This document shows positions 7,615 through 43,862 of a stretch of 64,000 bases of DNA, piece by piece (within the stretch, counting starts at the first letter, position 1; each line of letters opens with the position of its first letter). The notes under the pieces were generated by a model, which saw only the letters and a program-made list of their open reading frames with translations, was not told where the DNA came from and made no database searches. The translations under genes and the position numbers were made by a program. Source of the DNA: Deltaproteobacteria bacterium (GTDB taxonomy: Bacteria; Desulfobacterota; Desulfobacteria; Desulfobacterales; B30-G6); contig JAJDNW010000022.1 in the NCBI GenBank assembly GCA_022340465.1, positions 1 to 64,000 on the forward strand. The letters run 5' to 3'.

Positions 7615-8349
7615 TTAACGTGCCATTTTAATTACAAGCGCTTTCCCATGCTCGCTCAACCCCAGCGCCTCTATTTCCCGCGCCAGCTGGTCCTTTGTGC
7701 CGTATCCCCCGGCGTAGCCGTTCAGACGGGCCGCAACGGTGGACGCCACCAGGTCACGGTGGTCAGGGTAGATGGCTGTCAGTTCACGCACGAGGCCGGC
7801 GTGCTGTTTCAGGATGTATTTCTGATGGTAGCCTTCAGCCATGGTGAAGGTTCGCACTGGAAGGATCCTGGTGGTGACTGTCTGGCCGGATTTTTGCTCC
7901 AGGGCCTGTTTGGAAGCCAGGGCCGTTTTTCGCTGCCGGTCGTTGTGAAAGAAGACGGCGTGCATGTATTGTCCCGGCGTGTTCCGGCCTGTCGGTGTAT
8001 GGCTTTCCCAGACGACATTCAGAAGCTGGGCATAGGTGATGCGTGTGGGGTCGAAATCAACCTGCACCGTTTCCGTGTGGTCACCTATCCGCATGTATGT
8101 GGGCGCCGCCTTTTTACCTCCGGCATACCCCACACGCGTCCGGATCACTCCCTCGACAATCCCGAACCGGGATTCAACACCCCAAAATCAGCCCAATCCG
8201 AAAGAGGCGGTTTCGAAGGTGGGCGGTGCCGCGGCATCCAGAGGCGCCAATGCCACCTGCCCTGCAAACGCCGTCCTTTGACCCAAAAACAGGGCGAGCG
8301 TGAACAGCACGGCATGCATTATGGATGTTAACAGTTTGTTTATTTTCAT
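7615..8349 (-). CDS. msrA: Peptide methionine sulfoxide reductase A, selenoprotein with signal peptide
   Basis: 244 residues if the in-frame TGA at 8190-8188 is read as selenocysteine (residue 54). Upstream of the TGA the frame encodes a signal peptide (MKINKLLTSIMHAVLFTLAL, cleavage near AFAG) and 'PTFETASFGLG'; downstream it continues 'FWGVESRFGIVEGVIRTRVGYAGG', so the family motif GCFWG appears as G-U-F-W-G with the catalytic position encoded by TGA. Later hallmarks are present: 'HTETVQVDFDP', 'GQYMHAVFF', 'AEGYHQKYI'. No other Cys occurs, so there is no resolving cysteine. A SECIS-like hairpin follows the TGA. A GTG at 8388 is an alternative start. The enzyme would reduce Met-S-sulfoxide outside the cytoplasm. 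A mutated pseudogene is the alternative, but the perfect placement of the TGA argues against it. Confidence 0.85.
8158..8174 (-). promoter_or_regulatory. Bacterial SECIS-like hairpin of msrA
   Basis: On the mRNA the stem AATCCC / GGGATT closes a five-base loop GGTTC and begins 13 nt after the UGA. Distance and a GG/GU-containing apical loop agree with SelB-recognised bacterial SECIS elements such as that of E. coli fdhF, where the upper stem-loop begins about 11 nt after UGA. The hairpin lies within the coding sequence, as is usual in bacteria. Confidence 0.7.
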
Positions 8350-43608: not shown

Positions 43609-43862
43609 TACAATCCCAATGCCTCCTTGATCTCTTTTTCCTTATATCCCACGATCACCTTGTCCCCGATAATCAATGTGGGAAAGGAGCATCTGGGATT
43701 GACCTTTTTGACATCCTCCAAAATGGCCTTGCGTTCTTCACCTTCCAAAAGGTCCACGTCCACGAAATCGTATTCGATGGTGCATTCGGACAGCAGCCTT
43801 TTGGTGGATTTGCAGTGGCTGCATGTGCTCAGGGTGTAGAGTTTTACGTCTTTTTCAGCCAT
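43608..43862 (-). CDS. Glutaredoxin-family protein
   Basis: 84 residues. Active site 'STCSHCKSTKRLL' (C14, C17), 'YDFVDVDLLEGEERKAILEDVKKVNPRCSFPTLIIGDKVIVGYKE' with the cis-Pro. Encoded directly before FTR-beta (shared boundary base), so it is the likely FTR substrate in place of thioredoxin. Promoter presumably in 43863-44016. Confidence 0.93.
   Translation of the reverse strand: MAEKDVKLYTLSTCSHCKSTKRLLSECTIEYDFVDVDLLEGEERKAILEDVKKVNPRCSFPTLIIGDKVIVGYKEKEIKEALGL

Follow-up and report, generated by a model that had tools for sequence, protein, structure and literature searches.

A predicted exported selenocysteine MsrA and its family in Desulfobacterota

The msrA gene at 8349-7615 on the minus strand of the window (the whole stretch of 64,000 nucleotides analysed here) very probably makes an exported selenoenzyme, with selenocysteine (Sec) inserted at an in-frame TGA codon and with MsrA repair taking place in the cell envelope. 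Its reading as a selenoprotein is supported by selenocysteine machinery in the genome, TGA in full-length relatives, purifying selection and a covarying hairpin, while Sec insertion, export and activity of the protein are what we infer from these sequences.

The gene and its putative recoding hairpin

The gene is a single frame of 244 residues, with ATG at 8349, TAA at 7617-7615 and one in-frame TGA at 8190-8188, which corresponds to residue 54. Frame translation and alignment to MsrA confirmed the proposal of the first-pass annotation that this TGA occupies the position of the catalytic Cys in the GCFWG motif. As that annotation had also stated, the frame holds no Cys codon, leaving Sec as the only catalytic chalcogen by codon and the resolving Cys absent. 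With Cys put at the TGA, the product matched PF01625 at 136.8 bits (curated Pfam cut-off 23.7) and TIGR00401 at 126.4 bits (cut-off 108.1), and the catalytic domain, including Glu93, was placed at residues 48-185 (7795-8208, minus strand) by Pfam and alignment. The C-terminus matched PF20939 (30 bits, cut-off 23.7), the Pfam domain bearing the selenoprotein MsrA name; this helical domain, typical of Sec-MsrA, covers residues 199-234 (7648-7755, minus strand). Beside the gene in the window, we found no MsrB; a divergent DUF481 protein lies upstream and a tRNA-Asn downstream, and a tRNA was the only match in an Rfam scan of the msrA region.

The genome (4.39 Mb in 162 contigs, 95% complete) encodes SelA, SelB and SelD, the last itself carrying an in-frame TGA, as well as a tRNA-Sec with anticodon TCA, such that all of selA, selB, selC and selD are present.

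A hairpin (AATCCCG-GTT-CGGGATT, 8174-8158 on the minus strand) starts 13 nt after the TGA, where it had been noted before as lying at bSECIS spacing, and its apical loop, GTT, opens with G at +21 nt. These features agree with the bSECIS rule of a small apical loop that has G at its first or second position and lies 16-37 nt downstream of the UGA (PMC13188914). Folding, which the first-pass annotation had proposed as a check, did not single out the hairpin by free energy: the minimum free energy structure of the 41-nt stretch was another fold (-9.9 versus -8.7 kcal/mol for the hairpin), and the window sequence alone was not stabler than shuffles (z-scores of -0.45 and +0.47). Folding of the window stretch gave no signal and was rejected as proof of a SECIS element.

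The support for the putative bSECIS is comparative, consisting of covariation and a synonymous-codon control. Across 71 distinct family sequences, 86.7% of cells in the stem were paired, and variable stem pairs showed exchanges among A-U, C-G, G-C and U-A. Double-changed cells numbered 50 against 19.2 in shuffles, and the covariation score was 0.259 against 0.087 in shuffles, none of which scored as high, and 0.016-0.064 with slid pairing partners; the shuffles keep shared ancestry, and these numbers are therefore not probabilities. In three members (L171, L173 and L177; GACTCC-AGGTTC-GGAGTC) the helix register appears by eye to be shifted by one base. When synonymous codons were substituted according to family usage, the longest stem averaged 4.8 instead of 6.5 bp and the mean energy weakened from -11.1 to -7.1 kcal/mol; elsewhere in the gene, the real sequences showed no comparable excess over recoding. 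Taken by itself, the window sequence had its stem equalled by 5% of its synonymous recodings, and Cys-type MsrAs scored likewise gave stems of 4 to 7 bp, so stem length in a single sequence is not diagnostic. Residues after Sec vary jointly (Glu-Ser with Ile, Asp-Ser with Ser, Glu-Ala with Leu), a pattern that codons constrained to pair in a hairpin would produce, in which case the RNA element shapes the protein sequence.

Fold, family and known relatives

The AlphaFold2 model built on the family alignment had a mean pLDDT of 91.6, with C-terminal helices at about 95-97 over most of their domain. Its best fold match was Clostridium oremlandii MsrA (4lwj; TM 0.90 by target length, 41% identity), and the best solved relatives by sequence were all this natural selenoprotein. 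CoMsrA (Clostridium/Alkaliphilus oremlandii; PDB 4lwj, 4u66; PMC4479559, PMC4333827) resembles the window protein in having a catalytic Sec and no other Cys, and the two share the catalytic Glu, the C-terminal helical domain and one tree clade. By sequence and fold, the window protein is of this two-domain, 1-Cys type. Glu93 aligns with Glu55 of CoMsrA, a residue whose change has been studied (PDB entries 4lwl, 4lwm), and is invariant in 50 members. The proteins differ at the N-terminus: CoMsrA, of 209 aa, has Sec at position 16, preceded by 15 residues and no signal peptide (PMC4479559), whereas 53 residues, beginning with the predicted export signal, precede Sec in the window protein. The Sec form of CoMsrA has 20 times the activity of the Cys form and is reduced by glutaredoxin, not by thioredoxin (PMC4479559). 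The earlier suggestion that Sec would be recycled directly by a reductant, with no resolving Cys involved, is consistent with the published behaviour of CoMsrA, there via glutaredoxin.

In the tree, the two-domain family splits from Cys MsrAs (SH-aLRT 99) and CoMsrA falls among Desulfobacterota sequences; with weak inner branches and a root set only for drawing, the tree gives no direction for Sec-Cys change. Four haloarchaeal Cys MsrAs (L011-L014) with a similar C-terminus form a long branch nested among the Sec forms, possibly reflecting Sec-to-Cys conversion after transfer. The same genome also encodes Cys MsrA-MsrB fusions (L006 and L008), which belong to the same reaction class, and L006 has a signal-like N-terminus. 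Unlike the window protein, both carry a catalytic Cys within a GCFWC motif, lack the helical domain and fall in a separate clade.

Conservation, selection and predicted export

Both other genomes of the genus carry TGA at msrA. A search of 389 genomes of the order gave 52 matches scoring 240 bits or higher, every one with a single TGA and none with Cys, and reading of the loci confirmed GUFW at this site; below 240 bits, only fragments were found until Cys-type MsrAs appeared at about 151 bits and lower. Likewise, the 28 matches above 245 bits among 395 genomes of the phylum all have TGA at the catalytic site, and the next match (175 bits) has Cys and consists of the catalytic domain alone, without the helical domain. 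Whether close relatives carry Cys or TGA, a check proposed at the outset, was thus answered by TGA in every full-length relative found. Two of the collected loci (L009 and L107) are one gene, present in a genome of the order and on contig JAIVHE010000156.1 of a Desulfobacteraceae MAG; this assigns the window to Desulfobacterales. One of the 28 matches in the phylum (L155 from 1069 on, genome G737) has two TGAs, reading GUFU with the second at the expected Trp, for which recoding, mutation and sequence error are alternatives. Viral contigs yielded only two relatives, both more distant.

We consider it extremely improbable that the gene is the dead remnant of a canonical MsrA in which mutation or sequencing error turned the Cys codon into TGA. 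Usual gene calling does split the frame, as had been anticipated (the ORF list shows 7615-8148 alone), and two relatives have damaged copies, one of the same genus (G002; L004, near 1830) in which about 100 internal residues are deleted and the frame changes, and one (G027) without the first half of the gene. Genuine loss or an assembly fault may explain each; with two damaged copies, it follows that the Sec-msrA gene can be lost. However, the TGA stands at the same codon in every full-length relative, the sel genes are present, and the window copy shows no other disabling change. Compared with the same-genus copy, dS was about 1.04 and dN about 0.23 over the 185 codons after the TGA, and the 20 codons before it were also constrained (pN 0.15, pS saturated). 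The gene is therefore not a pseudogene, since purifying selection acts both before and after the TGA. The combination that the first-pass annotation had named as favouring a pseudogene, Cys in relatives together with other disabling mutations in this copy, was not found.

The selenoprotein is predicted by inspection to begin with a Sec-type signal peptide at residues 1-29 (MKINKLLTSIMHAVLFTLALFLGQRTAFA, then GQ; 8263-8349, minus strand), with n-, h- and c-regions, the hydrophobic segment AVLFTLALFLG and a cleavage site placed by eye; the AlphaFold model has a helix at residues 3-23. A simple hand-made rule scored the N-terminus as signal-like in 69 of 81 family members, 27 of them carrying a lipobox-like motif and 8 a twin-arginine motif; as a control, the rule was positive for 18 of 84 ORF frames of the window. 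Of the 12 members that failed it, most have a signal recognisable by eye and represent missed Tat motifs, truncated contigs or threshold cases. Sec-MsrAs of this clade would thus normally be exported, by Sec, lipoprotein or Tat signals. The earlier view that this is an unusual secreted Sec-MsrA stood as to the predicted signal, but not as to its rarity, signals being the rule in the clade.

That the protein is instead a cytoplasmic Sec-MsrA, whose N-terminus is a membrane anchor or results from a wrong start and is neither cleaved nor exported, seems improbable. Such a reading would suit the signal-less CoMsrA (PMC4479559), the nine of 81 members classed as anchor-like and showing no clear cleavage site, and one member (L133) in which no signal was visible by eye in the survey. 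However, the hydrophobic N-termini of the family include lipoboxes and twin-arginine motifs, which are export marks, and adjoining MsrB proteins bear export signals too. Even an uncleaved anchor, with positive charges before its hydrophobic segment, would by the positive-inside rule still be expected to put the domain outside.

Neighbouring genes and proposed envelope repair

Twelve loci have a gene for MsrB or MsrA-MsrB beside Sec-MsrA on the same strand; each of these neighbours has an export signal by eye, and two were confirmed as SelR/MsrB by Pfam. Sec-MsrA itself was already known in Deltaproteobacteria, where it was listed in 2006 for Syntrophobacter fumaroxidans (PMC1794560), and it has been listed for marine metagenomes (PMC2398784); where these papers list Sec-MsrA, they give nothing on export, a two-domain clade or MsrB neighbours. 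A literature search found no exported Sec-MsrA, covering open papers only and thus being weak evidence of novelty. Judged from sequence, normal export of the Sec-MsrA of this clade, and exported MsrB or MsrA-MsrB beside it in 12 loci, appear to be new here.

Under the exported selenoenzyme reading, SelB and tRNA-Sec, guided by the hairpin, would insert Sec at the TGA, and the N-terminal signal would direct export of the product through the inner membrane, probably into the periplasm. There, the Sec selenolate would attack the S-sulfoxide of oxidised Met in envelope proteins, yielding Met and a selenenic acid. The mature protein contains no resolving Cys, so direct reduction of Sec would fall to an outside donor; an external thiol or selenol could act on Sec54 in this way, as glutaredoxin does for CoMsrA. 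Possible reductants are a periplasmic thioredoxin-like protein fed by CcdA/DsbD, small thiols or sulfide. The genome does encode a CcdA/DsbD-type membrane protein, and our guess is that it could feed electrons outward to Sec-MsrA.

No dedicated reductant was found beside msrA in the source genome. Glutaredoxin was rejected as a neighbour, with none beside the gene and two elsewhere that showed no signal by eye, and NF041383 (VPGUxxT) was rejected as a partner, having no match above its cut-off. A small Cys-type glutaredoxin is encoded in the window at 43653-43847 (minus strand), and a glutaredoxin-like frame of 73 aa elsewhere (L219, about 1490-1700; C24:119701-119877), with TGA in DTUPFT, is likely a cytoplasmic selenoprotein. 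Just after the L008 MsrA-MsrB gene lies a small frame with an in-frame TGA and a signal-like N-terminus (L214, 1396-1839; genome C44). It reads ATFYVHU-YSVGKAALEGLDGV...YDPEKVT, resembles a heavy-metal-associated fold by eye and is a candidate second exported selenoprotein beside msrAB. Proteins with the molybdopterin oxidoreductase domain PF00174, whose class includes the periplasmic Met-sulfoxide reductase MsrP, occur near Sec-msrA at about seven loci (among them L126, L169 and L190).

A broader proposal, which we put forward tentatively and regard as rather unlikely, is that Desulfobacterota operate a selenium-dependent repair system in the envelope, in which exported Sec-MsrA acts on S-sulfoxides and exported MsrB on R-sulfoxides. 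Its Sec would be recycled with no resolving Cys involved, and the donor might be sulfide or an exported selenoprotein dedicated to this role. To our knowledge, no Msr has such a recycling route. An exported Sec-only MsrA raises the question of which donor reduces the selenenic acid outside the cytoplasm. Because the catalytic half of the protein is lost in usual gene calling, envelope Met repair is likely mis-annotated across a large group of anaerobes.
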